Shown here piece after piece: positions 1 to 17,820 of a stretch of 28,234 nucleotides of DNA. Position numbers and translations under genes: made by a program. Position 1 is the first letter of the stretch; each line of letters starts with the position of its first letter. The notes under the pieces are model-generated. The model had not been told where the DNA came from, made no database searches, and was given only the letters and a program-made list of their open reading frames with translations. Source of the stretch: a virus; IMG/VR virus record IMGVR_UViG_3300035670_006159, positions 1 to 28,234 of that record. One strand, 5' to 3'.

Positions 1-576
1 CTCCCCAATCTCAAAATTAAATATTGGTTTATCGACATTAAAGAACCCAACTTCACTTGAATCTTTTCCAATAGATACCACACTAATTCCTTTTTTATTC
101 AACTCAGATGTTAATTTCATCCACTTTTCTGCGTCCCAAGTTCTACTCGGCCAGTTCTGTACTGGATGAATTAAAACATACTTTTCAGGTAAATCTTCAA
201 TTGGTTCGTATTCATTAGGAATGTAATCCAACCCCATTTCATCTTTGGTTAACATAAACCCAAGTTTAACAGCGTGATATTGTCTAATATCCATTCGGTT
301 GTGTTTGTATTCAACACCTTGAGAGTTCTTTCTACCACCTTCGTAAAATGAATTATGGACGATAAAGTTATCGTCCTTTCTGATAAAATCTAAGTTTATT
401 ACAGATGAGTCGTAAACTTTTTCTACGTAAGGGTTGTTTGAGAATAGTTCGGGGTGTTTGGTAATTACAACGATTTTTGAGTTGTAAGCGTCGTATAATT
501 TTCTAATCACGGGTGTAGAACATAAACTATCACCTAAGGCGTTACACTCGGACAAATCCAAACAAATCTTTTTCAT
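1..576 (-). CDS. GT9-family heptosyltransferase-like protein (3' part outside window)
   Basis: This leftward open frame begins at the ATG complementary to 574-576 and stays open for 192 codons to the window edge, so the C-terminus is missing. The visible part fits glycosyltransferase family 9 (ADP-heptose:LPS heptosyltransferase type). The N-terminal Rossmann half has the family's GDSLCSTPVIRKL segment (residues 15-27). A second half starts with YVLIHPVQNWPSRTWDAEKW (133-152) and continues to a VVSIG strand (166-170), like the donor-domain entry of GT9 enzymes. Such enzymes transfer heptose from ADP-heptose to a lipid A core, and relatives O-heptosylate Ser/Thr of surface proteins. The acceptor here is unknown. 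The heptose kinase and adenylyltransferase genes at 8361-9492 support an ADP-heptose donor. The start has no Shine-Dalgarno sequence. Family call is fairly sure; substrate is inferred. Confidence 0.8.
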   Translation of the reverse strand, partial: MKKICLDLSECNALGDSLCSTPVIRKLYDAYNSKIVVITKHPELFSNNPYVEKVYDSSVINLDFIRKDDNFIVHNSFYEGGRKNSQGVEYKHNRMDIRQYHAVKLGFMLTKDEMGLDYIPNEYEPIEDLPEKYVLIHPVQNWPSRTWDAEKWMKLTSELNKKGISVVSIGKDSSEVGFFNVDKPIFNFEIGE

Positions 577-586
577 AGGACAATAA

Positions 587-601
587 TAAGGGAAACCCTT
601 A
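587..601 (-). promoter_or_regulatory. Small leader hairpin before the GT9 gene
   Basis: A perfect 6-bp inverted repeat (TAAGGG / CCCTTA) with a 3-nt loop lies 10 nt upstream of the leftward start codon. No T-run follows, so it is not a terminator. It could shape the 5' leader or be a protein-binding site. Role unknown. Confidence 0.3.
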
Positions 602-657
602 AAAATTACAGATTAATTCTAACCTATTTTCTATTTAAGGTAAACATAATCACCATA

Positions 658-665
658 TATTTATT
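658..665 (+). promoter_or_regulatory. TATTTATT motif, candidate phage promoter element
   Basis: This copy of the recurrent TATTTAT(A/T) motif ends 4 nt before the ATG at 670. Ten genes in the window carry the motif in the same orientation relative to the gene. Here the spacing is so short that a -10 box would give an almost leaderless or leaderless transcript, or the motif has another role. Confidence 0.4.
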
Positions 666-669
666 GATA

Positions 670-1152
670 ATGGAATCAGTTGTTATATATTCGGCGGAAG
701 GTACCCCACCATTTCAAATTAGTCTTTGTGATATGACCAATACCTTCTGTTATATTGTGGGTATTGATGTAACAACTTTTCCGGTAACCCTACAGGTTCC
801 ACCACCATTACAGAATGTTAATCAGATGTTGGTTTCTATTAAGGATGCTTATTATTGTAATACGTTCCAAACATTATCATTCTTAACACCGACCCCAACT
901 CCGTCACCAACCCCAACACCAACACCAATTGTTTCTGATTGTCGTTGTATCACATTTGATAACTCGATGAATAATTTGGACTACGATTTTAGTTTAAACT
1001 TATGTAATGGGTCGTTATTGGAGGGTGTTATCTATTCTGGTACTACCTTATACTATTGTGGTAATTCACCTTCTGTTGAACCTGAGGTGGGGGTTACTAT
1101 AGGTGCTCCATGTTCGAGTGGTAGCTGCCCAACACCTACACCAACTCTTTAA
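670..1152 (+). CDS. Small Cys-rich protein with Thr-Pro repeat linker, probable virion accessory protein
   Basis: This is a 160-residue protein of unrecognised family. The ATG at 670 is preferred over an in-frame TTG at 664. It has two short Cys-containing, probably beta-rich segments (about 1-70 and 90-150) joined by a 14-residue Thr/Ser-Pro linker (73-86, TPTPTPSPTPTPTP), and ends in another short PTPTPTL run. No signal peptide or membrane segment is evident. The same architecture of small domains joined by Thr-rich linkers occurs in the 6410-7480 protein and inside the tail sheath, which suggests a virion decoration or fibre-like role. It sits directly before the glycosyltransferase operon, so the linker may be a glycan acceptor (inference). 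The C-terminus ending within a repeat looks abrupt, as if the protein had once been longer. Confidence 0.6.
   Translation: MESVVIYSAEGTPPFQISLCDMTNTFCYIVGIDVTTFPVTLQVPPPLQNVNQMLVSIKDAYYCNTFQTLSFLTPTPTPSPTPTPTPIVSDCRCITFDNSMNNLDYDFSLNLCNGSLLEGVIYSGTTLYYCGNSPSVEPEVGVTIGAPCSSGSCPTPTPTL
886..927 (+). repeat. Thr-Pro coding repeat (ACN-CCN hexamers)
   Basis: Seven imperfect tandem ACN/TCN-CCN hexanucleotides encode residues 73-86 of the small Cys-rich protein. The codons vary (ACC, ACT, TCA, ACA; CCG, CCC, CCA), so the repeat is kept at protein level more than at DNA level. It gives an extended, hydroxyl-rich linker. Confidence 0.8.
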
Positions 1153-1230
1153 AAAATCTTTATTAGATTTACAGAACAAATCTTAACTTTATTCCTTTTT
1201 CAATTACATTTTCCACAAAAGGATTAATGT

Positions 1231-2475
1231 ATGAGAATTTTTATTCAAATAGCGTCGTATCGCGACCCCGAGTTGGTTAAGACAATCAAGTCAATTTTAG
1301 AAAACGCCAAAAACCCAAAAAATTTAAGATTCGGTATTTGCCGACAATATCACCCTGAAGATGGTTTTGATTCTTTAGAAGAGTATAAAGACGATACTCG
1401 TTTTAGAGTTATTGATGTTTTATATTCGGAATCTAAAGGTGTTTGTTGGGCAAGAAACCTAACCCAAACTTTATATGAAGGTGAGGAATATACGATGCAA
1501 ATTGACTCCCACATGCGTTTTGCAAAGAATTGGGACTCTGAGTTTATCAAGATGATTAAACAACTTCAAAAGGACGGGTTTGAGAAACCTTTGTTAACAA
1601 GTTATGTATCATCATTTAACCCTGAGAACGACCCTGCAGAACGAGTTAAAGAACCGTGGAGAATGGTATTTGACCGATTCATTCCTGAAGGTGCGGTATT
1701 CTTCTTACCTGAGATTATACCTGGATGGGAGAAGATGAAAAAACCTGTACCGTCACGTTTCTATTCAGCTCACTTCTGTTTTACATTAGGTCAGTTTTCT
1801 GAAGAAGTACAACACGACCCTGAGTTCTATTTTCACGGAGAAGAAATTTCAATTGCGGTTAGAGCTTACACGTGGGGTTATGATTTATTCCACCCACATA
1901 AGACTTTGGTTTGGCACGAATACACTCGTAATGGTAGAACAAAACAATGGGACGACGACCCTGATTGGGGTAATAAAAATGTTCGTTCACACCAAAAGAA
2001 TAGAAAGTTATTTGGTATGGACGGTGAAGGTATTACCGACATGGGTAAATACGGATTCGGCCCTGTTAGAACATTAAGAGATTATGAAATCTATTCGGGT
2101 CTTCGTTTTGATAACCGCTCAGTCCAACACTATACACTAGATAAAAACTATCCACCTAACCCTACTATGTTTGAAACAGAACAAGAGTGGTTAGATAGTT
2201 TTGCAACAATATTCAAACATTGTATCGACCTTGACTATTCTTTGGTACCTGAAAAAGATTACGAATTTTGGGTGGTTGCATTTCACGATGAAAACGATGA
2301 AACAATATTCCGTGAAGATGCCGATACCGATGAGATAAACCGAGTTATGAATGACCCTGATGGTTATGGTAAAGTATGGAGAACATTCCAAACATCTGTT
2401 AAACCTACTTATTGGGTTATATGGCCTTACTCAAAATCTAAAGGTTGGTGTGATAGAATACAAAATTACTTATAA
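1231..2475 (+). CDS. GlcNAc-type glycosyltransferase (PF11397-like)
   Basis: The 414-residue product resembles the GlcNAc-transferase family of Pfam PF11397, bacterial and viral relatives of the enzyme that attaches GlcNAc to hydroxyproline of Skp1. Family hallmarks are FIQIASYRDPEL at residues 4-15, FGICRQY (34-40), GVCWARNLTQTLYEGE (70-85) and the metal/nucleotide-sugar site QIDSHMRF (90-97), where D92-S-H94 replaces the usual DxD. It is a soluble GT-A enzyme without visible membrane segments. It opens a compact operon of four sugar-transfer genes (3 nt to the next start). Its start is one of few here with a Shine-Dalgarno-like AAAGGA. The acceptor is not deducible; the protein-hydroxyl acceptors of the family make Thr/Pro-rich virion proteins an interesting possibility. 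Confidence 0.85.
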   Translation: MRIFIQIASYRDPELVKTIKSILENAKNPKNLRFGICRQYHPEDGFDSLEEYKDDTRFRVIDVLYSESKGVCWARNLTQTLYEGEEYTMQIDSHMRFAKNWDSEFIKMIKQLQKDGFEKPLLTSYVSSFNPENDPAERVKEPWRMVFDRFIPEGAVFFLPEIIPGWEKMKKPVPSRFYSAHFCFTLGQFSEEVQHDPEFYFHGEEISIAVRAYTWGYDLFHPHKTLVWHEYTRNGRTKQWDDDPDWGNKNVRSHQKNRKLFGMDGEGITDMGKYGFGPVRTLRDYEIYSGLRFDNRSVQHYTLDKNYPPNPTMFETEQEWLDSFATIFKHCIDLDYSLVPEKDYEFWVVAFHDENDETIFREDADTDEINRVMNDPDGYGKVWRTFQTSVKPTYWVIWPYSKSKGWCDRIQNYL

Positions 2476-2478
2476 TAT

Positions 2479-3741
2479 ATGAATATAGCTGTATGCCAAT
2501 TTTATACCCCTAATGTATCATACGGGGAATATGCTGAAAAAATTAATGAAAAATATTGTCAGGATAATGGTTATAACTACTACGTAGAAAAAGACCCTAA
2601 TAAAATTAAGAGTAAGATTCCCGACCGTTCATGGACATGGTACAAACCACATCTTATTAGAGAGACTTTAGAAAGATTCCCTGAGTCGGATTATGTTTTG
2701 TTTTTAGACATTGATGCAATTTTCTGTAACAACTCAAGAAGAATAGAGGAATTTATTACTGATGATTTTAGTATTTTAATGACCAGAGACCACGGACCAT
2801 CATTGGTTAATGCCGGTGTTATGATTGTTAAAAATAACGATTATACACAGAGGTTTTTAACTGAGTGGTGGGATATCTGTGAAGAATACCCTAAATATAA
2901 AGAAGGTTTATGGCATGACCAAACTTGTATTGGTTTATGGCACGAAAGACTAGAAGATAGAAGTCAATTTAAGATAATCGACCATAACGATTTAAACGCT
3001 CGTGAATATAGTGAAAGTCATTTTATATTTCACGCCTTCTCTTACGGATTAGTCCAAAACAGAACAATAGATGTTATCTATAACAAAAAGTTTGGTATTG
3101 AGGTTGTTTTTGAAACTAAAGACCTGGTTCAAATAGCGAACCATTTTGGTACTGACAAACAACATTTTCATCATTACTACGAAAGATTTTATAAGAAACT
3201 ACTAAAAGATTATCAACCAAAATGTGATATTTTAGAAATTGGTGTTTTAGATGGTGCATCACTTAGAGTTTGGAATGAATATTTTGATGAAGGTGTTATT
3301 CACGGTATTGATATTAATGGTTACCAATCAGATTTAGAACGAGTATGGATGTTTAATGTCGACCAGTCAAATGAACAATCATTATACGACTTTTCAAGTA
3401 ATGGGTTTATGTACGATGTTATTATTGATGACGGTTCACATAAAATGAAAGACTTACAGATAACCGCTCAAATTTTATTTGAAAATGTTAAACCTGGTGG
3501 TTATTTGGTGATTGAAGACTTACAAACGTCAATTGAGTGTAGAATGCCTGAAAAAGAAATCTTTGGTTGGGGTGACCCTGAAAAAACTACATGTTTAGAT
3601 ATGTTACAAAGTATTATTGACGGCAACCCTGTAACTGATTATAAAACTGAAAGATGGGAATCTTTTATTAACAATATAGAATCAATCTTTATTTCTAATG
3701 ATAGAGAAGATTCAATTTATGCAATTATTAAGAAGAAATGA
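2479..3741 (+). CDS. Bifunctional protein: GT34-like glycosyltransferase + class I SAM methyltransferase
   Basis: Two enzymatic domains are visible in 420 residues. Residues 1 to about 205 look like the GMA12/MNN10 (GT34) galactosyl/mannosyltransferase family: WTWYKPHLI (52-60), the metal-binding strand YVLFLDIDAIF (72-82, D77 and D79), NAGVMIVKN (111-119) and a HFIFHAF segment (181-187). Residues from about 215 to 420 match a sugar O-methyltransferase-like Rossmann domain: HFGTDKQHFHHYYERFY (222-238), the SAM-binding loop LEIGVLDGASL (252-262), the acidic GIDIN (276-280) and IIDDGSH (315-321). Such methyltransferases often cap glycans by O-methylation. The fusion suggests one sugar is added and then methylated (inference). 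The gene overlaps the next by 4 nt (ATGA), so translation is likely coupled. Confidence 0.8.
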   Translation: MNIAVCQFYTPNVSYGEYAEKINEKYCQDNGYNYYVEKDPNKIKSKIPDRSWTWYKPHLIRETLERFPESDYVLFLDIDAIFCNNSRRIEEFITDDFSILMTRDHGPSLVNAGVMIVKNNDYTQRFLTEWWDICEEYPKYKEGLWHDQTCIGLWHERLEDRSQFKIIDHNDLNAREYSESHFIFHAFSYGLVQNRTIDVIYNKKFGIEVVFETKDLVQIANHFGTDKQHFHHYYERFYKKLLKDYQPKCDILEIGVLDGASLRVWNEYFDEGVIHGIDINGYQSDLERVWMFNVDQSNEQSLYDFSSNGFMYDVIIDDGSHKMKDLQITAQILFENVKPGGYLVIEDLQTSIECRMPEKEIFGWGDPEKTTCLDMLQSIIDGNPVTDYKTERWESFINNIESIFISNDREDSIYAIIKKK

Positions 3742-4685
3742 ATGTAATCGTTTATCACATATTTTGTGCGGGTAATTACCAAGAAATCGTTAAATCACAA
3801 CTTAACAGAATGATGTCGACAGGGTTATTCCAATGGTGTGACCAAATGGAAGTATCTTGTGTTGACCCTGAAGGAAAATACGAAGGTATTGACGAAATAT
3901 TTGATGGTTTGGGTAAAGTTAATTTATTTAAAACAACTCATAATACCTATGAGTATTGGGGTATTAAGAAAGTATGGGATTTATCTCAAGAACATGATGG
4001 TAAAGTATTTTACATTCACGCCAAAGGTGTTACAAACAATTATAAAAATAAAGTTACTAAAGAAATATCAAACTGGAAAGTTGAGGGTATTGAGTTATGG
4101 AGAGATGCTATGGAGTCCCACTTAATCGATAATTACCCCCAATGTGTTTCAGACTTAGATGAATATGATACTTGTGGATTAACTTGTAATGGTAATTGGT
4201 ATTGGGGTAATTTTTGGTGGGCAAATCTATCATTTGTGAGAGAAAATCCTGAACCTGTTCATGGTGACAGATGGTATTTTGAGGCTTGGTTACATTATGC
4301 AAGACATTATAAAGGTAAAGAATATTTACATTTCGAGTGGAACCCTTATTTCACTAATTTACCTGTTGAGGCTTACGTTAATGAAGATTTTTTTAAGAAT
4401 AAAGAGGTGGAAATTATTAACGGATTATTTGGTGCGACAGGCATCCAACAAGACGAAGGATATCCTGAGAATTACCCTATAGACCAAGTGGATGTGACTG
4501 AAAAGTTAATTGAGAATTTCAATTTAAACGATGGTAAAGAACTTAATATTAGAGTTGATACTAACACATTAGGTGAGCCTGCTCACGGACTACGTAAGTT
4601 CTTAGTAATGATGATTAGGATTGGTGAACAAACATATAGAATAACTTACAACGAAGGTTTTAACGTTGGTCTAAAATTTAATTAA
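3738..4685 (+). CDS. Probable glycosyltransferase with YIHAKGV / GNFWWAN motifs
   Basis: The 315-residue protein resembles a poorly characterised glycosyltransferase-like family of capsule and phage gene clusters. Its marks are an aspartate-free YIHAKGV strand (residues 92-98), a WRDAMESHL helix (121-129), GLTCNG (147-152) and GNFWWAN (157-163), which would form an acceptor or nucleotide-sugar pocket. The last 80 residues form a separate segment (from about IINGLFGATG, with VDVTEKL and a final beta-rich part) that weakly recalls a domain appended to other proteins. I do not name it. The start overlaps the upstream stop by 4 nt and the next gene starts one base after its stop, so this is a middle gene of the operon. 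Glycosyltransferase role is likely from motifs and context; sugar and acceptor unknown. Confidence 0.65.
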   Translation: MNVIVYHIFCAGNYQEIVKSQLNRMMSTGLFQWCDQMEVSCVDPEGKYEGIDEIFDGLGKVNLFKTTHNTYEYWGIKKVWDLSQEHDGKVFYIHAKGVTNNYKNKVTKEISNWKVEGIELWRDAMESHLIDNYPQCVSDLDEYDTCGLTCNGNWYWGNFWWANLSFVRENPEPVHGDRWYFEAWLHYARHYKGKEYLHFEWNPYFTNLPVEAYVNEDFFKNKEVEIINGLFGATGIQQDEGYPENYPIDQVDVTEKLIENFNLNDGKELNIRVDTNTLGEPAHGLRKFLVMMIRIGEQTYRITYNEGFNVGLKFN

Positions 4686-4686
4686 T

Positions 4687-6369
4687 ATGAAATCAAATAT
4701 AACTATTGTAACAGGATTATGGGATATGGGTAGAGGTGATTTACCCGGATGGGCTAATAGAGACTTCCAACACTATAAAGATAGATTTTTTGAGATGTTA
4801 GAAACTGATGCTCAGATGTGTATTTTTATACCACAAGATTTAGAAGAAGATGTTAGACGTATTAGGGGTGAAAAACCGACAAGGATTTTTATTAAAAATT
4901 TAGAGGATTTCGAAACATGGAACCCATTCTTCAATAAAATTCAAGAAATCAGAAATAATCCTCAGTGGCGAAACTTTACCGGTTGGTTAGTTGATTCACC
5001 ACAAGCTGCTCTTAAATACTATAACCCTATGATGTTTACCAAAATGTTCATGCTGAATGACTCGGCCATCATGGACCCATTTGGTAGTGATTATTTCTTT
5101 TGGATTGATGGTGGTTTAACTAACACCGTTGGTAAAAACTATTTTGTTGATGAAAAGGTTTTAGATAATTTGGATAACTATGTTATTAAACACGAAAATA
5201 AATTCGTCCAAATATCTTACCCATATACATCAAACGATGAGATTCACGGTTTTGAGCGTAGAGCGATGGCCAGACATTGTGGTGTTGATTTTGTTAATTA
5301 TGTTTGTCGTGGTGGATTCTTCGGTGGACACAAAGATAGAATTCACGAGGTAAACATGTTGTATTATAACATTATGGAATCAACATTAAATGAAAATTTA
5401 ATGGGTGCTGACGAATGTTTATTTACAATTTTAGCACATAAATACCCAATCGTCAGTCATCGTTTTGAGATTGATGGTAATGGTTTGGTTTGGCCGTTTT
5501 TTGAGGAATTAAAAAAGTATAACGATGATTCGGTTAAACACGACACATCGTTTTCAAACCCTGACAACGTTGGTTTATATGTAATTACTTTTAATAGTCC
5601 AAAACAATTTGAGACATTGATTACCTCGATGTTACAATATGATGACAATTTCATTAATAGACCTAGAAAAATTTTATTGGATAATTCAGGTGATTTATCT
5701 ACAACACAAAGATACATTGAGTTATGTCGTCAATATAATTTTGAACATGTTAAAAAAGATAATTTAGGTATCTGTGGTGGTAGACAATGGATTGCGGAAG
5801 ATGCTGAACAAAGAGGATTTGATTTTTATTTCTTCTTCGAAGATGATATGTTTTTCTATCCAAAACAAGGTGATGTGTGTAAAAACGGATTCAATCGTTA
5901 TGTAAAAGATTTATACAAACACTCAATATCAATTGCTCAAAATGAGAATCTTGATTTCTTAAAACTTAACTTTACCGAATTCTATGGTGATAACTCAACA
6001 CAGTGGAGTTGGTATAATGTCCCACAAAAAGTTAGGGATGAGGTTTGGCCTGAGAAGAATCAATTACCTGAAAGAGGTTATGACCCAAATGCGCCAAGAA
6101 CAGAATTCAAACATATCAAGTCTTATAATGGAATACCATATGCGTTAGGTGAAGTTTATTATTGTAACTGGCCTCAGGTGGTGACCAAAAAGGGTAATAC
6201 GAAAATGTTCTTAGACACAAAGTGGGGTCATCCTTACGAACAAACGTGGATGAGTCATATGTTCCAAGAATCAAGAAAGGGTAATTTATCAACAGGTATA
6301 TTACTAATGACACCAACAGAACACGACCGATTTGATTTTTATGATGGTTCGTTGAGAAAAGAAAGTTAA
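4687..6369 (+). CDS. Two-domain glycosyltransferase: HtrL/YibB-like + GT2-like
   Basis: The N-terminal half (residues 1 to about 275) fits the HtrL/YibB family (Pfam PF09612): ITIVTGLWDMGRG (5-17), RDFQHYKDRF (25-34), the acidic FFWIDGG (137-143), GGFFGG (209-214) and ADECLF (241-246). The C-terminal half (about 290-560) starts with VGLYVITFNSPKQFETLITS (295-314), typical of GT2-type transferases, followed by LGICGGRQ (360-367) and the probable metal site FFFEDDMFF (382-390). No membrane segments are seen. It closes the sugar-transfer operon, one base after the preceding stop. A TATTTATA motif lies between it and the next gene, so the operon may end here. The protein probably makes two glycosidic bonds in one glycan (inference). 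Confidence 0.75.
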   Translation: MKSNITIVTGLWDMGRGDLPGWANRDFQHYKDRFFEMLETDAQMCIFIPQDLEEDVRRIRGEKPTRIFIKNLEDFETWNPFFNKIQEIRNNPQWRNFTGWLVDSPQAALKYYNPMMFTKMFMLNDSAIMDPFGSDYFFWIDGGLTNTVGKNYFVDEKVLDNLDNYVIKHENKFVQISYPYTSNDEIHGFERRAMARHCGVDFVNYVCRGGFFGGHKDRIHEVNMLYYNIMESTLNENLMGADECLFTILAHKYPIVSHRFEIDGNGLVWPFFEELKKYNDDSVKHDTSFSNPDNVGLYVITFNSPKQFETLITSMLQYDDNFINRPRKILLDNSGDLSTTQRYIELCRQYNFEHVKKDNLGICGGRQWIAEDAEQRGFDFYFFFEDDMFFYPKQGDVCKNGFNRYVKDLYKHSISIAQNENLDFLKLNFTEFYGDNSTQWSWYNVPQKVRDEVWPEKNQLPERGYDPNAPRTEFKHIKSYNGIPYALGEVYYCNWPQVVTKKGNTKMFLDTKWGHPYEQTWMSHMFQESRKGNLSTGILLMTPTEHDRFDFYDGSLRKES

Positions 6370-6388
6370 TTTATTTCTTAATTCAAAG

Positions 6389-6408
6389 TATTTATAGTTA
6401 AAACTATA
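6389..6408 (+). promoter_or_regulatory. TATTTATA motif with overlapping 16-bp palindrome
   Basis: TATTTATA lies at 6389-6396, 13 nt before the ATG at 6410. The palindrome TATAGTT-AA-AACTATA at 6393-6408 overlaps the motif and would fold in the short leader or act as a repressor or activator site. Confidence 0.4.
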
Positions 6409-6409
6409 G

Positions 6410-7480
6410 ATGGAATTTTTCATTAAGAAGAACGCGACGTTACCTGTATTAAAATTACAAGTTGTTAAAGACGGTAGAAGTGACTATAATAGTTTCATGA
6501 AAACTATTGAGGAATCTGCCATATTCTTCTCAATGGTTGATGTTGACACTGGCATTCCAAAAATTAGTTCAAGACCCGCAGGTTTTGTTGAGAAAACCCT
6601 TTTAGACCCAAACGCATCACCTGAATATTACATCTATTATCAATTTACAAATAAGGATACTAATAGAGTCGGTCGTTACGAAGGTCAGTTTATGTTACGT
6701 AATGATGACGGAGTTTTAATCGTACCTATTAGAGAGTCTTTATTTATTAATGTCCAAGAATCATTTATTGCCGACGACTTAGAGTATTCGAGTTGTTATG
6801 TCTCAGAGTTCCCGTGTTGTTTACCATACGCAACAACAACCACGACTAATCCACCTATTACAACAACTACTACGGAACCACCAGTAACTACAAGTACAAC
6901 AACTATTACACCTCCGTACACAACAAGTACAACAACATCTTCTTGTTTAACCTGCACCACTGGTTCATCATTACCACCGATTGGTCAAAGTAGAACATAT
7001 AATGGTGTGTTATTAACCGGCTCTGGTTCAGGGTATGTTTCTGGTTCACAAGTACCATCAATACCTACTTGTTACTCTAACTGGGATGGTCCCGTTTTAG
7101 GAACTACGTTTTTAGGTAGACTAAATACCACAATACCATCACCATTTATTTACGAATTAAGTTTCGGTGAAAATGTGAATAATGTTAGTTTCAGATTTAT
7201 AAATTACTCAGGGTTCCCCCCAATGTATAGAGAAACCTTTACAATAACACTATACCAAGATAATGTGGAGGTACCATTAACAATTAACCCTTGTGAATAT
7301 TGTTGTGCAGAAATTATTGGTAATACCATTTTAGCCACCGACGGCTCAGGATGTCAAAATGGTAGTGGTATTTTCAGGTTTGAGACCGAAGTATCATTCA
7401 ATAAAGTTAAAATAGAAGGTCCTGGTGGGGGTGGTGGAACATTCTTAGATGTTTGTCAAGACTCAATTATACCGGTCTAA
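6410..7480 (+). CDS. Virion-like protein: adhesin/baseplate-type N-domain, poly-Thr linker, beta-rich C-domain
   Basis: The 356-residue protein is not assigned to a family with certainty. Residues 1 to about 125 form a beta-rich domain ending in GRYEGQFMLRNDDGVLIVPI (88-107) and INVQESFI, a pattern like N-terminal attachment domains of phage baseplate or receptor-binding proteins (general resemblance, BppU-like). A 40-residue linker follows (about 142-178) of Thr, Pro and a few Ser. The C-terminal 175 residues are rich in Ser, Gly, Thr and paired Cys (PCCLP, SCLTC, PCEYCC) and could be a carbohydrate-binding or Ig-like beta-sandwich. No signal peptide is seen. A promoter-like motif precedes it and it stands alone. 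Probably a tail or head decoration/fibre protein; the linker is a candidate O-glycosylation region. Confidence 0.6.
   Translation: MEFFIKKNATLPVLKLQVVKDGRSDYNSFMKTIEESAIFFSMVDVDTGIPKISSRPAGFVEKTLLDPNASPEYYIYYQFTNKDTNRVGRYEGQFMLRNDDGVLIVPIRESLFINVQESFIADDLEYSSCYVSEFPCCLPYATTTTTNPPITTTTTEPPVTTSTTTITPPYTTSTTTSSCLTCTTGSSLPPIGQSRTYNGVLLTGSGSGYVSGSQVPSIPTCYSNWDGPVLGTTFLGRLNTTIPSPFIYELSFGENVNNVSFRFINYSGFPPMYRETFTITLYQDNVEVPLTINPCEYCCAEIIGNTILATDGSGCQNGSGIFRFETEVSFNKVKIEGPGGGGGTFLDVCQDSIIPV
6833..6943 (+). repeat. Thr-rich coding repeat (ACA/ACT trinucleotides)
   Basis: Imperfect runs of ACA, ACT and ACC codons interrupted by Pro codons encode residues 142-178. The protein-level pattern is blocks of about five Thr followed by one or two Pro, near-identical in style to the segment inside the sheath gene at 21477-21569. 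Confidence 0.8.
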
Positions 7481-7521
7481 AAATATTTTACTTAAATCAC
7501 ATTCCTAATTATATTTCTATT

Positions 7522-7914
7522 ATGGAAAAACCTATTGTTTATAACGCCCTTGAGTGTAGGGAATGTAATGTACCCAAAGGTTGGGGACATGAAGTTATTT
7601 TTGAGAATAACGAATTATATTGTGGGAAGTTGTTGGTGTTTAAGAAAGGTTGTAAATTCTCAATGCACTACCACATGATTAAAGACGAAACTTGGTATGT
7701 TGATAAAGGTGAGTTTATCTATAGATGGATTGATACCGAAAAAGGTGAAGTTCAGGAACGACACTTAAAAGTTGGTGATACCGTAAGACAATTACCGGGA
7801 CAACCACATCAGTTGGAGGCTTTAACTGAAGGTACTATTTTTGAGGTGTCCACAGAACACTTCGATTCTGATTCACATAGAGTTTGGTTAGGTGACGTAC
7901 TTAAGAGTGAATGA
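7522..7914 (+). CDS. Small single-domain cupin, sugar isomerase/epimerase-like
   Basis: The start is placed at the ATG at 7522; a longer frame opens at 7453 inside the upstream gene and adds residues without cupin character. The 130-residue product is a one-domain cupin. Motif 1 is GCKFSMHYHMIKDETWYVDKG, with the expected HxH, Glu and Gly. Motif 2 is GDTVRQLPGQPHQLEA, with the second metal-side His. It resembles the C-terminal half of mannose-6-phosphate isomerase/GDP-mannose pyrophosphorylase type II and other sugar-nucleotide cupins. Metal binding at the two His, Glu and later His is expected. Its neighbours, heptose-phosphate enzymes, fit a role in sugar metabolism, but a small cupin may have other substrates. 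The 3' end overlaps the converging SET gene by 14 bp. Confidence 0.75.
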   Translation: MEKPIVYNALECRECNVPKGWGHEVIFENNELYCGKLLVFKKGCKFSMHYHMIKDETWYVDKGEFIYRWIDTEKGEVQERHLKVGDTVRQLPGQPHQLEALTEGTIFEVSTEHFDSDSHRVWLGDVLKSE

Positions 7915-8308
7915 TGTTAATATTACTACGACCATCATCCCAATATGACTCATCACCATACCAAACAAAAATTTCTTCATTCGGGTGAATAGTTCTATTA
8001 GCAATAAATAGAAATGTTCTAGAATCCTGTTTAGATATCCAATATGCGTTTGCGTTATTACTATGGTTATATAATGAACCATACCCCAATGATATAACTT
8101 GTTCGTCAGGTTCACTACCCTGAGGCCAATTAAACCTATAATCAATTAATAATGATGTTGATTCGCCTTTAGATATTGGTAAAGTTAATATCGGACATTC
8201 CTCAATAATTTCACCTTCATTTATAGTTTCTTTTGCAAAGACACCCCATCCGTGAACTGGTGATTTATCAATATAGATTTTTTTTGGGGTTATTATGAGT
8301 GATGACAT
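7901..8308 (-). CDS. SET-domain protein (putative lysine methyltransferase)
   Basis: The 135-residue frame is read from the ATG complementary to 8306-8308; a TTG 18 nt further out is less likely. The whole protein is a minimal SET domain: SPVHGWGVFAKETINEGEII (16-35), the SAM-binding GSLYNHSNNANAYW (77-90, with N81-H82) and FIANRTIHPNEEIFVWYG (101-118), where Tyr117 is the expected catalytic Tyr. These enzymes methylate lysine side chains of proteins with SAM. No pre-SET zinc cluster or post-SET Cys region is present. It is the only leftward gene between the glycosylation operon and the polymerase, converging with the cupin (14-bp overlap) and diverging from the nucleotidyltransferase. The target could be a host or virion protein; none is indicated. 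Confidence 0.85.
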   Translation of the reverse strand: MSSLIITPKKIYIDKSPVHGWGVFAKETINEGEIIEECPILTLPISKGESTSLLIDYRFNWPQGSEPDEQVISLGYGSLYNHSNNANAYWISKQDSRTFLFIANRTIHPNEEIFVWYGDESYWDDGRSNINIIHS

Positions 8309-8360
8309 ACTATTTCTTTTAATCAATTATACTTTATTTTTTGATAAAATAAAATCAATA
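8309..8360. promoter_or_regulatory. Divergent intergenic region with AT-rich inverted repeat
   Basis: The 52 bp between the SET gene and the nucleotidyltransferase gene must hold both leaders. It contains the inverted repeat TTTATTTT-N5-AAAATAAA (8333-8353). The low complexity makes chance likely; it could be a shared operator. Confidence 0.25.
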
Positions 8361-8765
8361 ATGGTAAGAGTTTGGGTAAACGGAACATTTGATGTATTAC
8401 ATAGAGGTCATTTAGAACTCTTAGAATTTGCATCATCACTTGGTGAAGTTCGAGTCGGTATTGATACGGACAGTAGAGTTAAAGAACTGAAAGGTTCTGG
8501 TAGACCCGTTAATAGTTGTATTGATAGACAATACTTTTTATCGAGAATTAATGGTGTGACCGACGTTGTAACTTTTGATTCTGATTTTGAATTAACCGAA
8601 CACATTAGATTGTGGGGGCCCGACTTCTTAGTTGTTGGCTCTGATTATAAAGATAAAAAAGTAATTGGTTCTGAACATGCCAAAGAAATAATCTACTTCG
8701 ATAAACTAGATGGTTACTCATCAACAAAAATTATAAATTATGGTCAAAGCATTAGTGGTCGGTGA
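8361..8765 (+). CDS. Heptose-1-phosphate adenylyltransferase-like nucleotidyltransferase (HldE C-terminal domain type)
   Basis: The ATG at 8361 begins the family at its usual place; an in-frame ATG at 8295 adds 22 unconserved residues. The 134-residue protein is a cytidylyltransferase-fold enzyme with NGTFDVLHRGHLELLE (7-22, HxGH at 14-17), LKGSGRPV (43-50), WGPDFLVVGSDYKDK (85-99) and the C-terminal SSTKII (120-125), the counterpart of the ISTRI/STT signature. The WGPDFLVVGSDY and KGSGRPV segments best match RfaE2, the adenylyltransferase half of HldE, which makes ADP-heptose from heptose 1-phosphate. A TagD-like glycerol-3-phosphate cytidylyltransferase is the alternative. The adjacent kinase, overlapping by 26 bp, makes the HldE-type role more likely. 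Confidence 0.8.
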   Translation: MVRVWVNGTFDVLHRGHLELLEFASSLGEVRVGIDTDSRVKELKGSGRPVNSCIDRQYFLSRINGVTDVVTFDSDFELTEHIRLWGPDFLVVGSDYKDKKVIGSEHAKEIIYFDKLDGYSSTKIINYGQSISGR

Positions 8766-9492
8766 ATTAGGTACCGACAGATTTGTTTATTGCAAAATAA
8801 CTCGTTTATGTCCTGAAGCACCTGTTCCTGTATTAAATCCTATCGAGATTAAGGAAAATAAAGGTATGGCTGGTAACGTCGTAGAAAACTTAAATGCTTT
8901 GTGTGATGATATTGAAGTTGTTCATTGGCATCAATCTACCAAAATTGAAAAAACTAGATTTGTTGAGAAAAAGAGTAATCAAATGATTACCCGAGTTGAT
9001 GATGGTGAAATCAATAGATGTGACACCTTAAATTTCTTATCGTCAAGACAAAAGAAGACTATTGGTAAATCTGACTTTGTAGTTATTAGTGATTACAATA
9101 AAGGTTATTTAGACCAAACAATTATTGATGAAATATCAAAACTTGCAAAATTGACAATTATGGATACTAAGAAAAAATTGTCAGGGTCTATGATTATGGA
9201 TATTGATTTCATCAAACTAAATGAAACTGAATATCTGAATAACAAAGAACTTGTGGATTTGTACCCTGAAAAGTTTATAATTACTTTAGGTTCCGAGGGA
9301 TGTATGTACAACCATGTGGTTTACCCAAGTAGTAATCCAAAAGAAACTATTGACGTTAGTGGTGCCGGTGACACATTTACCGCTTCGTTTATTTTAAAGT
9401 ACCACGAAACCAAAGACATCCCATCATCTTTAAAGTTTGCGAATGACATGGCAGCAATCGTGGTTTCAAAAAGAGGAGTGGCAACCCCCTAA
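8740..9492 (+). CDS. PfkB-family heptose-7-phosphate kinase-like protein (HldE N-terminal domain type)
   Basis: This 250-residue ribokinase-fold protein has the RfaE1/HldE kinase pattern: VVGELGTDRF (6-15), TRLCPEAPVPVL (21-32), the sugar-binding NKGMAGNVVENL (40-51), KTRFVEKKSNQMITRVDDGE (71-90), VISDYNKGYL (115-124), IKLNETE (158-164) and the anion-hole/catalytic DVSGAGDTF (205-213, Asp211 as base). It would phosphorylate heptose 7-phosphate at C1. Length is about 60 residues below the usual kinase domain. The gap appears between residues 50 and 70, where the lid and GVVGDD region are reduced. HldE order (kinase then transferase) is reversed here and split in two genes. Overlap of 26 bp with the transferase suggests coupled translation. 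Substrate specificity after the lid loss is not certain. Confidence 0.8.
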   Translation: MVKALVVGELGTDRFVYCKITRLCPEAPVPVLNPIEIKENKGMAGNVVENLNALCDDIEVVHWHQSTKIEKTRFVEKKSNQMITRVDDGEINRCDTLNFLSSRQKKTIGKSDFVVISDYNKGYLDQTIIDEISKLAKLTIMDTKKKLSGSMIMDIDFIKLNETEYLNNKELVDLYPEKFIITLGSEGCMYNHVVYPSSNPKETIDVSGAGDTFTASFILKYHETKDIPSSLKFANDMAAIVVSKRGVATP

Positions 9493-9601: not shown

Positions 9602-12397
9602 ATGATAAGTCAAGAAGAAATTAAATCCTTCCTCGAAGGTAATGACCCCGAAGAACATATTGTCGCGGTCGAGTTCGATTATGTTACGGACTCAATTTAC
9701 AAAATCAAAGAAATTCCTGGTCAGGGTAAAGTTATTAAGAAAGATTCGTTCACCGCATTTGCATGGGTCGGTGATTTACGAGGACTTAACTTTTACAAAA
9801 CATCCAAAGATTTACAGAAAGAAGCGATGACCAAATATGGTATCGTGATTGATAAGTTAGAAACCAAAGGTGATGAACGACTTGAGAATGGTCTTAAGTA
9901 TATGGTTAAATCACTTAAAGGTTATCGTACACTTATCCAATTCTTCCGTGATGGTGGATTAGACCCGTGGTCAGATAAAGCTAAAGATAAGATAATGGTA
10001 TTACCCCCTGTAGAACAATACCTCATCTCAAGAGAGAAACGATTGTTCAAAGGGTATGAAGAATACAATGATATCACCAGACTCGGATTCGACTTAGAGA
10101 CGACCGCTCTAGAACCAAAAGACGGTCGTATCTTTATGATTGGAATCAAAACCAATAAAGGATTCCAAAAAGTTATTGAATGTGCCGACGAAGACCAAGA
10201 AAGAAAAGGTATCGTTGAGTTCTTCAGAATTATTGATGAACTTAAGCCTTCAATCATCGGAGGTTACAACTCAGCGAACTTCGACTGGTATTGGATTTTC
10301 GAGAGATGTAAAGCTCTTAATTTAGATATCAAACGTATCGCTAAATCACTAAACCCCCAACGACCAATCGCCCAAAAAGACGGATTGTTAAAATTAGCCA
10401 ACGAGGTTGAGCGTTTTACACAAACTAACCTTTGGGGTTATAACGTAATTGATATTATCCACTCAGTTCGTAGAGCACAGGCAATCAATTCAAGTATTAA
10501 GTCGGCAGGTTTGAAGTATATTACTCAGTATATTGATGCTGAAGCTCCTGACCGTGTATACATTCCCCACGAAGACATCGGGTCTATGTATAGAGATAAG
10601 AACGAATATTGGTTAAACGTTAAAAATGGGAAATATAAAAGGGCTGACCGACCTGAGTTCAAAGACTTAGATAAGAAATTTCCTGGTACTTATATAAAAG
10701 TTACGGGTGATAACATCGTAGAGAGATATCTTGACGATGACTTAGAAGAAACGTTAACTGTGGATGACGAGTTCAACCAGGGTACGTTTCTACTCGCATC
10801 GATGGTACCAACGACATATGAGCGTGTAAGTACAATGGGTACGGCGACTCTATGGAAAATGATTATGTTGGCGTGGAGTTACAAACACAAATTGGCGATT
10901 CCACAAAAAGAAGAAAAGACTGAGTTCGTTGGTGGTTTATCACGACTACTTAAAGTGGGTTACTCAAGAAACGTATTAAAACTTGACTACTCTTCACTAT
11001 ACCCATCTATTCAGTTGGTTCACGATGTATTCCCTAAGTGTGACGTTCTTGGTGGTATGAAAGGAATGTTGTCTTACTTCCGTAATGCTCGTATCATGTA
11101 TAAGAACTTAGCATCTGAGTGGTATGATAAAGATAAGAAGAAGTCACTTTCTTATGACCGTAAACAATTACCAATTAAAATCTTTATCAACTCGATGTTC
11201 GGTGCATTGTCCGCTCCACAGGTATTTGCTTGGGGTGACATGTATATGGGTGAACAGATTACCTGTACGGGTCGTCAATATCTTCGTCAAATGATTAAGT
11301 TCTTCATGAAACGTGGATACACCCCTCTTGTGATGGATACGGATGGTGTAAACTTCTCTAAACCTGAAGGGTGGGAAAACCGTCGTTATATCGGTAAAGG
11401 ATTAAACTGGAAGGTTAAAGCAGGTAAAGAATACACAGGTGATGATGCAGACGTTGCCGAATTCAATGATTTATTCATGAGGGGTGAGATGGCATTAGAT
11501 ACTGACGGAACTTGGCCTTCGTGTATTAACTTGGCTCGTAAGAACTATGCGGTTATGGAGGCGAGTGGTAAAATCAAACTTACGGGTAACACCATTAAAT
11601 CAAAGAAACTACCGTTATATATCGAGGACTTCTTAGATAAAGGGGTAAAACAATTACTCGAAGGTAAAGGTCAGGAGTTTGTGGAGTGGTACTACGAATA
11701 CATTAACAAAATCTTTAACAAGGAGATTCCGTTAATGAAAATTGCTCAACGTGCTAAGGTTAAGTTGTCGATGGATGATTATAAGTTCCGTTGTACTCAA
11801 AAGACCAAAGGTGGTTCACTTATGAGCCGTATGGCTCACATGGAGTTGGCGATACAACACAAACTAAATGTTCAGTTAGGTGATGTTATCTATTACGTAA
11901 ATAATGGTACCAAAGCTTCACAGGGTGATGTTCAAAAGGTTAACAAACTAAAGAATGGGTGGAGAAAAGACGACATCGAATACTACATGGCCGCAAATGG
12001 AAAACTTCCCGATGATACAATGGATTCTATGGTTAGAATCAATTGTTATATGTTAAACCAAAACGAGATTGAGAATAACCCCGATATGAAAGGTGATTAT
12101 AATGTACCAAGAGCAATTGTAACATTTAACAAACGTATCGAACCTCTACTTGTTGTGTTTAAAGAAGAAATTAGAGAAAACCTTTTGGTTACTGACCCTG
12201 AAGAAAGAGGGTTCTTCACTAAAGAACAATGTGAATTGATTAATGGGGTTCCTTTCAAAGAAGGAGACCAAGACAGACTACAAGAGGATGTTTTAGATAT
12301 TAGTGAAGGTGAGTTAAAGTATTGGGCTAAACGTGGTATTGACCCTAACTATATTTACGACTTAGCTTCTGAAGGGTGGGAAGAACACATTATTTAA
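9602..12397 (+). CDS. Family-B replicative DNA polymerase with 3'-5' exonuclease (T4 gp43-like)
   Basis: The 931-residue protein is a complete family-B polymerase, near the 898 residues of T4 gp43. The exonuclease domain has Exo I RLGFDLETTAL (D164 and E166) and Exo II GGYNSANFDWYW. The polymerase domain has motif A LDYSSLYPSI (D462), motif B KQLPIKIFINSMFGALSAP (K526, N530, G534) and motif C VMDTDGVNF (D579, D581; DTDG instead of the usual DTDS). A KLTGNTIKSKKLPLYIEDFL segment follows, as in DNA-binding thumb-proximal parts of the family. Catalytic residues are all present, so it should be active in phage genome replication. No Shine-Dalgarno sequence is present; the leader has its own promoter and hairpin. 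It converges with the leftward block, overlapping the next gene's stop by 4 bp. Confidence 0.95.
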   Translation: MISQEEIKSFLEGNDPEEHIVAVEFDYVTDSIYKIKEIPGQGKVIKKDSFTAFAWVGDLRGLNFYKTSKDLQKEAMTKYGIVIDKLETKGDERLENGLKYMVKSLKGYRTLIQFFRDGGLDPWSDKAKDKIMVLPPVEQYLISREKRLFKGYEEYNDITRLGFDLETTALEPKDGRIFMIGIKTNKGFQKVIECADEDQERKGIVEFFRIIDELKPSIIGGYNSANFDWYWIFERCKALNLDIKRIAKSLNPQRPIAQKDGLLKLANEVERFTQTNLWGYNVIDIIHSVRRAQAINSSIKSAGLKYITQYIDAEAPDRVYIPHEDIGSMYRDKNEYWLNVKNGKYKRADRPEFKDLDKKFPGTYIKVTGDNIVERYLDDDLEETLTVDDEFNQGTFLLASMVPTTYERVSTMGTATLWKMIMLAWSYKHKLAIPQKEEKTEFVGGLSRLLKVGYSRNVLKLDYSSLYPSIQLVHDVFPKCDVLGGMKGMLSYFRNARIMYKNLASEWYDKDKKKSLSYDRKQLPIKIFINSMFGALSAPQVFAWGDMYMGEQITCTGRQYLRQMIKFFMKRGYTPLVMDTDGVNFSKPEGWENRRYIGKGLNWKVKAGKEYTGDDADVAEFNDLFMRGEMALDTDGTWPSCINLARKNYAVMEASGKIKLTGNTIKSKKLPLYIEDFLDKGVKQLLEGKGQEFVEWYYEYINKIFNKEIPLMKIAQRAKVKLSMDDYKFRCTQKTKGGSLMSRMAHMELAIQHKLNVQLGDVIYYVNNGTKASQGDVQKVNKLKNGWRKDDIEYYMAANGKLPDDTMDSMVRINCYMLNQNEIENNPDMKGDYNVPRAIVTFNKRIEPLLVVFKEEIRENLLVTDPEERGFFTKEQCELINGVPFKEGDQDRLQEDVLDISEGELKYWAKRGIDPNYIYDLASEGWEEHII

Positions 12398-12774
12398 CCC
12401 ATCTTAATACCGTCAGAAGATGCAATGTACCAATTACCTTTAATAAAGTAAAATTCAACACAGGCACCTCTATCAATATCAACCTCATCCCAATCTTCAT
12501 CAATAGCTCCTTTATCAGGGGCTATTGTTACTTTGGTTAAAGCCTTAATGATTACGTGTTCTGTTGTTTGTGAATTTAAAGTTAGACGACATTCAGGTGT
12601 CCCTTTAACAACAATAAATTCTTCACCATTAGTCGAGTAAGTTGATGAGGTTACGATTTTAGTTAAATCAACCTCTTCATTCATTCTTGCACTCATAATG
12701 GTTTCAATATCTCTATTTGAGTATAGTTTTTCACCAACAAATTTTCTACCGAAATTTCTTCTCATACTACCCAT
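12394..12774 (-). CDS. Small beta-rich protein, probable virion component
   Basis: The 126-residue frame starts one base after the stop of the gp13-like gene, so the two are one transcription unit. A basic N-terminal stretch (GSMRRNFGRKFVGEK) precedes alternating short strands: VTSSTYST, EEFIVVKG, CRLTLNS, HVIIKAL, KVTIAPDKG, ACVEFYFIKGNWYIASSDG. The spacing and the final aromatic GNWYIAS resemble the small beta-barrel or tip domains at the ends of phage fibres and collar proteins, but no family is recognised. An alternative start is the Met at residue 4. Placement behind a neck protein makes a head-tail joint, collar or decoration role likely. It converges with the polymerase gene, sharing 4 bp. 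Confidence 0.6.
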   Translation of the reverse strand: MGSMRRNFGRKFVGEKLYSNRDIETIMSARMNEEVDLTKIVTSSTYSTNGEEFIVVKGTPECRLTLNSQTTEHVIIKALTKVTIAPDKGAIDEDWDEVDIDRGACVEFYFIKGNWYIASSDGIKMG

Positions 12775-12775
12775 A

Positions 12776-13897
12776 TTAAATCACATATATTTGACGAGGC
12801 ATCGCTCTAAACTTAAGTTGTTTGTTTAAGTTTTCGGCCAATAGGGCTTCTCGTTCCATAACTTTATCAGGTTTTAATCTGGTTAAAGTACCTTCAGCAC
12901 CTGTTAATTCCTCAATCAATTTCATCTTTTCATCTTTACCTTCAGTTAATAAACTTTGGTAATCCATTGTCAATTCTGAATCAGGTGTTTTAATGTTACC
13001 TGAGAACTTACCTCTAACACGACCTAATGTTTCTTTACAGGTCGCAATGAAGTAACGTCTAACCCATTGTTGTGCAGGGTTATTTAAATCAACCCAAGAC
13101 ATTTTATCTAATGGAACGTCTGACGGCATTTTAATAATGTCAGGATTGTTTTTAAGACACTTATCTCTATCATCAGGACCAACGTCGTAATACCAATACC
13201 AAACTTTACCTTTCATTAACTCAGCGTTACCAAAGTCAAACTTACCACCTGGTGTGTTCATTAAGTGGATGGCCTTTTTACCCTCAGGTAAAGCTGTTAC
13301 ACGATAAGTTAATTCACCGGCAATAATTCTTCTTTGGATGTTAATCTCTTGCATTCTTAATAACATATCAAAAGCTGGCATCATAAAATAAGAACCTGAC
13401 ATACCCATTTGTGAATAACCTGCCGGACCACCAAGACCAGCCCCACCTAAGGCTCCGAATGACCAAGGGTCGAATAACATGTTATTCAATTCTGAAGGTG
13501 TAAACCATAATAATTCATTTAACTCACGACCTGCAGGAATTTCATAGATTTGTTGGTTAGGAACCAAATTAATATAATCTTTTTTCAAAACCCAATCACC
13601 ACCAGCTTGTAAACCAACGATTTTAGAATATGCGTAGGTATAACGAGTTTCAAAATCTAAACTCTTGGTGACGAATGCTCGAGCCAAAGACTGAGTCTCA
13701 ACATTAAGACCCCAAAGGTTTGACCATTGAGATTCGATAAGCCAGTTTTGGATATATTGTGAATAGTCGTCAATGGCGAACTCAAGTAGAGTATCCATTT
13801 GTTCGTCCTCTAATTCAACTGAACGTAAAGGTGCACCAAGTACGTGTCTTACCCTTGTGTAAAGTTTACTTCTTTCTGGTTCTGGAATAATTGACAT
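12776..13897 (-). CDS. Neck/head-tail connector protein (T4 gp13-like)
   Basis: The 373-residue protein begins with the conserved N-terminal part of gp13-like neck proteins: KLYTRVRHVLGAPLRSVELE (residues 11-30), then DEQMDTLLEFAIDDYSQYIQ, which forms the helical contact with the portal ring, and NWLIESQW. A central Gly/Met-rich loop (FGALGGAGLGGPAGYSQM) and an aromatic WYWYYDVGPDDRDK segment follow. The C-terminus is helical and charged. T4 gp13 has 309 residues, so this homologue is moderately longer. It is expected in the virion neck, closing the filled head and joining the tail with gp14. Oddly it is on the strand opposite to the tail module at 17305-28234, 3.4 kb away, separated by dismutase and helicase genes. 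The leader carries a TATTTATA motif. Confidence 0.75.
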   Translation of the reverse strand: MSIIPEPERSKLYTRVRHVLGAPLRSVELEDEQMDTLLEFAIDDYSQYIQNWLIESQWSNLWGLNVETQSLARAFVTKSLDFETRYTYAYSKIVGLQAGGDWVLKKDYINLVPNQQIYEIPAGRELNELLWFTPSELNNMLFDPWSFGALGGAGLGGPAGYSQMGMSGSYFMMPAFDMLLRMQEINIQRRIIAGELTYRVTALPEGKKAIHLMNTPGGKFDFGNAELMKGKVWYWYYDVGPDDRDKCLKNNPDIIKMPSDVPLDKMSWVDLNNPAQQWVRRYFIATCKETLGRVRGKFSGNIKTPDSELTMDYQSLLTEGKDEKMKLIEELTGAEGTLTRLKPDKVMEREALLAENLNKQLKFRAMPRQIYVI

Positions 13898-13910
13898 AGT
13901 TTGTTTTCTT

Positions 13911-13918
13911 TATAAATA
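13911..13918 (-). promoter_or_regulatory. TATTTATA motif before the gp13-like gene
   Basis: Read on the minus strand, TATTTATA stands 13 nt before the start codon of the gp13-like gene and directly next to the stop codon of the upstream SOD-fusion gene. It gives the neck gene its own candidate promoter. Confidence 0.45.
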
Positions 13919-15457: not shown

Positions 15458-15460
15458 AAG

Positions 15461-15483
15461 GCTTATTTTTATAATAAATAAGC
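15461..15483 (-). promoter_or_regulatory. TATTTATT motif inside a hairpin, leader of the SOD-fusion gene
   Basis: On the minus strand GCTTATTT pairs with AAATAAGC (8 bp, 7-nt loop) 3 nt upstream of the start codon. TATTTATT (15473-15480) lies in the stem and loop. The tape-measure leader shows the same combination of TATTTATTATAAAA and a surrounding inverted repeat. Confidence 0.4.
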
Positions 15484-15495
15484 GGAAGTTTCAAT

Positions 15496-17256: not shown

Positions 17257-17293
17257 AACACAATCGTTCTATTAATTATAATAAAAAACATAA

Positions 17294-17301
17294 TATTTAT
17301 C
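17294..17301 (+). promoter_or_regulatory. TATTTATC motif in divergent region
   Basis: The 48-bp divergent region between helicase and neck genes holds this motif only 3 nt before the ATG at 17305, like the copy at 658-665. No counterpart is seen in the helicase direction. Confidence 0.35.
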
Positions 17302-17304
17302 AAT

Positions 17305-17820
17305 ATGTCGGAGAATAAAGTACCTATTACACGTATCGGAAAGTTTTTTGGTTCCGAAGATTTCAACCTTGATATATCAATGGGTGAGGAATGGTTATAT
17401 GGCGATATGAATTTCACTTTAGTTCTTTATCGTGTTGACAAACAAAAGACAAAAACTGATGACGTTTATGGTGAAACACTAACTGACGGTATTAAATTTT
17501 TACCACCCGTAGAATTTAAGGGTTATGTTCAAGTTAGTGCACCTGAAAATAAATATTTAGGTAACTCTAAAATACAACAATCAGAACCAGGTAATGTAAG
17601 AATATCTGTTTATCAAAGACAACTTGATGAATTAGAAATTGATATTAACTATGGTGATTATATCGGGTATTATGAGACCGAAAGCCGTGTTAGATACTAT
17701 GTTGTTAATGATGACGGAAGGGTTGTGTCTGATAATAAACATACTTATGCGGGTTACAAACCATTCTATAGAACAATTATGGCATCACCTGTAACCAATA
17801 ACGAATTTAGAGGATTATAA
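17305..17820 (+). CDS. Probable neck or head-completion structural protein (gp14-like position)
   Basis: The 171-residue protein opens the rightward tail module. It is acidic and aromatic-rich, with conserved-looking segments GKFFGSEDFNLDISMGEEWL (12-31), LVLYRVDK, DGIKFLPPVEFKGYVQV and INYGDYIGYYE, probably a beta-barrel. I do not see a decisive signature, but its size, its place two genes before a gp15-like protein and in front of the sheath and tube, and the separate location of gp13 suggest a gp14-like neck or head-closure role. Its TAA stop overlaps the next start (TAATG), so the downstream gene is translationally coupled. Structural role is likely, exact counterpart uncertain. Confidence 0.55.
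   Translation: MSENKVPITRIGKFFGSEDFNLDISMGEEWLYGDMNFTLVLYRVDKQKTKTDDVYGETLTDGIKFLPPVEFKGYVQVSAPENKYLGNSKIQQSEPGNVRISVYQRQLDELEIDINYGDYIGYYETESRVRYYVVNDDGRVVSDNKHTYAGYKPFYRTIMASPVTNNEFRGL

Follow-up and report, generated by a model that had tools for sequence, protein, structure and literature searches.

Here, we analysed a 28,234-base virus fragment from the IMG/VR database (IMGVR_UViG_3300035670_006159; the whole stretch is referred to below as the window), which carries an island of glycosylation genes around an enzyme of the Pfam family PF11397 (1231-2475, plus strand). We take PF11397 to correspond to the glycosyltransferase (GT) family GT60. The latter includes the Skp1 hydroxyproline N-acetylglucosamine (GlcNAc) transferase and the Trypanosoma cruzi mucin GlcNAc-transferase, and the product of GT60 in the T. 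cruzi mucins is GlcNAc-alpha-threonine (PMC6939170, PMC9472816, PMC8724618). UDP-GlcNAc is the donor of the characterised PF11397 relatives, and the substrate in the assay of the T. cruzi enzyme, KPPTTTTTTTTKPP (PMC3769586), resembles in kind the segments TTTTTNPPITTTTTEPPVTT and GPTTTTTTTTVAP that are encoded in the window. The window enzyme shares with Skp1 Gnt1 and T. cruzi TcOGNT1 the PF11397 family, the DSH motif and a fold like that of the polypeptide GalNAc-transferases (ppGalNAc-Ts), and the acceptors in T. cruzi are threonine (Thr)-rich mucins, so that its relatives include enzymes of mucin synthesis in protists and animals; unlike these two, it is phage-borne, its gene is linked to those of Thr/proline (Pro)-rich phage proteins, and its donor and acceptor are putative. 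In our reading, to which we assign a probability of about 0.6, the island would provide mucin-type O-glycosylation of Thr/Pro segments of the virion, with heptosylation as an optional branch.

Glycosylation of phage virions is already known as a kind; what is new here is an enzyme family that has so far been characterised in the glycosylation of eukaryotic mucins and Skp1. In mycobacteriophages, phage-encoded glycosylation also concerns capsid and tail proteins, the glycans being found at the C-termini of the capsid and tail tube subunits, and a mucin-like acceptor is not part of the account as it is summarised there (Freeman et al. 2023, via PMC12619734). Comparable isolated phages are the jumbo Xanthomonas phage XacN1 and the Stenotrophomonas phages RAS14/CM1, which have a PF11397 homologue (43-46% identical) and a YibB-type GT. 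In XacN1, the homologue is ORF334 (46% identical), a GT9 protein is annotated nearby (ORF328) and, unlike in the window, the cassette includes a carbamoyltransferase. At least two virion glycoproteins are reported for XacN1 from proteomics (PMC5852040), which is the only experimental datum that we found, and there the glycan was not linked to the enzyme. A possible further parallel is offered by the moraphages, large phages of aquatic habitats for which four core groups of glycosyltransferases, T4-like tail genes and predicted Bacteroidota hosts were described, and no mechanism was proposed for their glycosyltransferases (PMC12619734). The open-access literature that we searched contained nothing directly about mucin-type glycosylation in phages.

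Results

The product of 1231-2475 reached 239.8 bits in a profile search against PF11397 (cut-off 21), which is the type of the Skp1 and T. cruzi mucin GlcNAc-transferases, and the same cut-off was passed in 32 of the 50 records that were compared. Its DSH motif (D92-S93-H94), a form of the DXH metal/donor motif, was invariant across 48 aligned homologues. A sequence search found no solved structure related to the phage enzyme; its AlphaFold (AF2) model had a predicted local distance difference test score (pLDDT) of 93.4. When this model was compared with the PDB using Foldseek, ranks 1-45 were all mucin-type ppGalNAc-Ts (best E 5.5e-11), which identifies a GT-A fold of the ppGalNAc-T type, with moderate whole-chain TM-scores (~0.5) and a best value of 0.65 for a chain of the size of the catalytic domain. 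The initial annotation, which was made from the sequence alone, had listed this gene among the putative transferases, and this is borne out by the PF11397 match; its mucin-type identity had not been recognised. As an enzyme of the PF11397/GT60 polypeptide O-glycosyltransferase type, it is a candidate initiator of the glycan. A hydroxyproline acceptor, as in the Skp1 model, was also considered; genes for 2-oxoglutarate oxygenases of the prolyl hydroxylase type were found in only 6 of 34 records and were not regular companions of the enzyme, which is why Thr is preferred as the acceptor.

The genes follow the same order in dozens of environmental phages that are related to this one: a Thr/Pro-rich protein (TPR), the PF11397 enzyme, variable sugar genes, a YibB-type transferase, a second, fibre-like Thr/Pro-rich protein (fibT) and the DNA polymerase. 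The order TPR-PF11397-YibB-fibT was also kept in many phages that have no GT9 gene. Of the 86 non-redundant genes that directly precede that of the PF11397 enzyme, 62% were Thr/Pro-rich, compared to 7.9% of the 2,124 genes of the same loci (Fisher p ~1e-33), and the gene downstream of YibB was Thr/Pro-rich in 47% of 94 cases (p ~4e-22); these values are indicative only, because the loci were collected via the fibT, YibB and GT9 queries from this region and are mutually related, so that the p-values overstate independence. On the inner side of each enzyme, the adjacent gene was Thr/Pro-rich in only 0-2% of cases.

Three candidate acceptors are encoded in the window, all on the plus strand. TPR (670-1152) consists of a small conserved N-terminal domain and a (TP)n segment, and its length among the relatives varies from 75 to 1,778 amino acids, the long forms being mostly PTNTPTPT-like repeats; in two relatives (L105 and L141), it has grown to about 1,760-1,780 amino acids of such repeats beside the same enzymes. 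fibT (6410-7480) has a conserved beta-rich N-domain that is followed by a Thr/Pro segment (TTTTTNPPITTTTTEPPVTT). Judging from their context, TPR and fibT are probably virion proteins. The third candidate is the tail sheath (20619-23948, phrog_23), which has a Thr/Pro insert at residues 283-323. The Thr segments that the initial annotation had pointed out are real. In fibT and the sheath, the clustering of Thr was matched by none of 300 composition shuffles. In 670-1152, the number of Thr residues is by itself not exceptional, as it was reached in 55 of 300 shuffles, but the TPTPTP pattern is kept and greatly expanded in the relatives. The glycosyltransferase island of L104, a near-identical relative of the window (GT9 95% and polymerase 97-99% identical), has at its far end a further gene for a Thr/Pro-rich, mucin-like protein (18935-19408, minus strand).

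Between the two flanking acceptor genes, the conserved last enzyme of the cassette (4687-6369, plus strand) is the YibB-type transferase (HtrL_YibB, 62.6 bits), which is supported by synteny and has a weak second GT domain. The other two genes are accessory and also lie on the plus strand: 2479-3741 encodes a GT34/DUF273-type transferase with a weak methyltransferase domain, and 3738-4685 a protein that had no match in Pfam or NCBIfam and, for that reason, is a putative transferase by context only. Thus, the transfer and methyl-transfer domains that had been proposed for these genes were found, some of them weak, in 1231-2475, 2479-3741 and 4687-6369 and not in 3738-4685.

The GT9-like transferase that had been noticed at the left end of the window is present as a fragment (1-576, minus strand; Pfam GT9 22.6 bits, cut-off 22), whose 3' part is missing at the contig end; 192 of about 315 amino acids are present, the full length being visible in L104. 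It lies head-to-head with TPR in most of the GT9-bearing relatives. In the full-length relatives, the catalytic G15-D16 and the C-terminal C264, C268, C291 and C300 are invariant, although the spacing of the four Cys is unlike that in TibC (339/342/358/370). Its assignment to the autotransporter heptosyltransferase type did not withstand comparison: the full-length relative P0001 scored 34.7 bits against TIGR04414 (BAHT; equivalog cut-off 200), and the N-terminal beta-barrel of TibC (1-97) is missing, as the protein begins at the GT-B domain and its match starts at profile position 91 (barrel, iron-finger Cys and related features as defined in PMC4358343). The low score and the missing barrel rule out a TibC-type enzyme, whereas the four Cys do not decide the matter either way. 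The equivalog cut-offs of the lipopolysaccharide (LPS) heptosyltransferases I, II and III were not reached either (best 41.1 bits compared to 170.2); the full-length relatives score weakly and about equally to both kinds.

A TibC-type enzyme was nevertheless found in the same island of L104, which extends beyond the left end of the window with more transferases and a 713-amino-acid protein (16340-18478) whose C-terminal half is of the TibC type (TIGR04414, 302.6 bits; cut-off 200). Its comparison with the TibC structure gave E 6e-56, with the barrel region and all four iron-finger Cys aligned and the position of the catalytic Asp kept. The corresponding protein of the close relative L110 also passes TIGR04414. 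Unlike TibC and Aah (PMC4358343), the proteins of L104 and L110 are phage-borne and fused to a GT4-type domain, and they lie outside the window. Because the island of L104 carries a true TibC-type enzyme, protein heptosylation is plausible; an enzyme of the proposed protein O-heptosyltransferase type does exist in the island, in a different gene from the GT9 gene that had been named for it. By analogy with L104, a TibC-type gene probably also lies beyond the left end of the window in this very phage. The TIGR04414 cut-off was passed in 25 of the 50 records, among them 8 of the 10 kinase-bearing environmental ones; 17 records have a TibC-type enzyme and no kinase. We also asked whether Thr-rich content goes with the TibC-type enzyme and rejected this, the densities being 5.1 residues/kb near the enzyme, 3.6 far from it and 4.5 in contigs without it. 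In the Microcystis phage Mel-JY01, the C-terminal part of a protein annotated as 'methyltransferase FkbM' (4750-8430) matches the TibC-type enzyme (40.8% identity), and GTSGTSG-type repeats occur near the match; the strand is uncertain relative to the deposited annotation.

Both halves of the predicted HldE-type pair were confirmed on the plus strand as HldE-like, with scores below the NCBIfam equivalog-domain cut-offs and with the motifs HRGH and GAGD retained: a nucleotidyltransferase (8367-8765, open reading frame from 8295; TIGR02199, 84.9 compared to 181.5 bits) and a PfkB kinase (8740-9492; TIGR02198, 127 compared to 345 bits), which is about 30 residues shorter, as in cyanophages. The neighbouring 'sugar cupin' is indeed a cupin (7526-7914 within 7453-7914, plus strand) with the metal-ligand motif GX5HXHX4EX6G kept, though its action on sugars is only weakly indicated. 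It accompanies the kinase in the window, in L110 and in cyanophages; from this constant company and from weak isomerase matches, one might guess that it stands in for GmhA. The pathway had been described as self-contained. This fails, because gmhA was absent from all 50 records and the kinase was present in 12 only, although the environmental records may all be fragments, as is the window itself (gmhB was not searched separately); only P-SSM2, S-SM2 and a single contig gave strong HldD-like matches. Kinase relatives were found in 19 environmental contigs and, among the named phages, in cyanophages. Only two of the ten kinase-bearing environmental records also have the nucleotidyltransferase, and most of the GT9 relatives have neither gene. 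Among the close relatives, L104 has both HldE-type genes, L110 only the kinase and cupin, and L107, L135 and L136 neither of the pair. The heptose genes are thus an accessory branch within the lineage of the window.

In the cyanophages P-SSM2, S-SM2 and S-CAM3, the HldE-type kinase and cupin occur as in the window, joined by the nucleotidyltransferase in P-SSM2 and S-SM2; unlike the window, these phages have an additional HldD-like epimerase and HAD phosphatase, which in P-SSM2 and S-CAM3 stand with the kinase and the same cupin family beside tail-fibre genes, and P-SSM2 has no PF11397 gene. This occurrence supports a heptose chemistry, but it also means that the pair belongs to an already known phage cassette. 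A full phage pathway for ADP-heptose was not found in the records searched. The 'phosphoheptose isomerase' of P-SSM2 (PSSM2_311, 12722-13066 of locus L101) is a HAD phosphatase by profile (TIGR01689, 35.2 bits), and the 'nucleotide-sugar epimerase' next to it is HldD-like (209.9 bits).

The window comes from an uncultured tailed phage and also encodes T4-like tail proteins (sheath, tube, hub) and a B-family DNA polymerase. A DNA-level search of the sheath region found no close named phage, the best match of the sheath protein was from Microcystis phage Mel-JY01 (31% identity), and the GT9 fragment and the fibT N-domain had no matches in INPHARED. A minus-strand block (12394-17256) with a gp13-like neck protein (12776-13897) breaks the run of plus-strand tail genes; it also includes a 512-amino-acid protein (13919-15457, minus strand) with an iron/manganese superoxide dismutase domain (134.7 and 81.2 bits) and a long extra C-terminal part. 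A SET-domain gene of the lysine methyltransferase type (7901-8326, minus strand; Pfam SET, 58 bits) had been overlooked initially; its product has a 71% identical counterpart in L136, which is without the HldE-type pair.

Discussion

We propose that, in the host cytosol and after translation, the PF11397 enzyme would place a first N-acetylhexosamine (GlcNAc in the characterised relatives) on Thr residues within the Thr/Pro-rich segments of TPR, fibT and possibly residues 283-323 of the sheath. Extension and capping of the glycan would then fall to the YibB-type enzyme together with the variable set of accessory transferases and methyltransferase; because these genes differ among close relatives, so would the glycan. 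An optional further step, in this phage and in some of its relatives, may be the attachment of heptose by the GT9 and TibC-type enzymes, with the HldE-type kinase and nucleotidyltransferase raising the supply of ADP-heptose, and GmhA and the remainder coming from the host. The glycosylated, mucin-like proteins would be exposed on the particle, where they would act as spacers or shields.

Several observations weigh against this model, in addition to the query-based selection of the loci. Thr-rich neighbours were found at only 3 of the 28 bacterial loci with a PF11397+YibB pair that were examined, and no Thr-rich gene stands beside the PF11397 enzyme in XacN1 and RAS14. Because most of these loci are without such neighbours, the pair may, in other settings, act on different acceptors. 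A fold search with the fibT N-domain gave no significant match. Of the 29 relatives whose sheath was examined, 25 have a Thr-rich insert and four have none, and at least one relative without it (L084/L242, a single contig) has the enzyme; for this reason, the sheath is a possible, not a necessary, acceptor.

An unlikely alternative is that the transferases and nucleotide-sugar genes remodel the LPS or capsule of the host to block rival phages. YibB is named for an Escherichia coli protein of the LPS region, which counts toward this explanation, as do the resemblance of GT9 to LPS heptosyltransferases and the presence of the PF11397+YibB pair on bacterial chromosomes. The kinase, nucleotidyltransferase, cupin and epimerase are shared with cyanophages, for which the cassette was interpreted as host-surface modification (PMC7824862). 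The position of the island speaks for a different target, as Thr/Pro-rich phage genes bracket the cassette, which abuts tail and replication genes. Moreover, the PF11397 fold is that of a polypeptide transferase, the TibC-type enzyme is a member of a family of protein O-heptosyltransferases and the glycoproteins of XacN1 were detected by proteomics (PMC5852040).

The initial annotation had proposed that the phage decorates its own Thr-rich proteins, which remains the best reading given the PF11397 core and the Thr/Pro flanks, and that this is achieved by a self-contained ADP-heptose system whose main reaction is the heptosylation of virion Thr segments by the GT9 enzyme; to this second part, we give little probability. 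The head-to-head position of GT9 and TPR, the HldE-type pair in the window and the distribution of the TibC-type domain would fit such a role; however, the absence of gmhA from the records searched, the scarcity of the kinase, also among GT9 relatives, the conserved order in phages without GT9, the unsuitable type of the window GT9 and a Thr-rich density that does not track the heptosyltransferase all place heptose outside the core of the system. Glycosylation of phage DNA bases is very improbable, since the C-terminal domain of the YibB protein matches TAGT (E 0.027) and a beta-glucosyl-HMC-alpha-glucosyltransferase family (E 0.0018) only weakly, the PF11397+YibB pair occurs on bacterial chromosomes, in which one would not expect DNA to be modified in this way, and the family searches of the window recognised no gene for base hydroxymethylation.

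Conclusions

Few cases of phage virion glycosylation are known, and the usual answers to what the many phage glycosyltransferases do are 'DNA' and 'host LPS'. Here, the conserved order of enzyme and acceptor genes leads to a specific, testable claim that names a protein, an enzyme and residues. In its broadest form, to which we give somewhat less than an even chance, a large lineage of uncultured aquatic phages builds true mucins, that is, length-variable virion proteins of Thr/Pro repeats that would be modified by a homologue of the eukaryotic mucin initiator and by swappable extenders and, in some phages, by TibC-type O-heptosylation that is fed by phage HldE-type genes. A further outcome of the analysis is that protein O-heptosyltransferases of the TibC type occur in phages. 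If the proposal is true, soluble, bacterial-style mucin glycosyltransferases would become available as tools, the odd Thr/Pro repeats in the proteins of environmental phages would be explained, and mucin-type O-glycosylation, which has so far been described in eukaryotes, would be placed in the viruses of bacteria.

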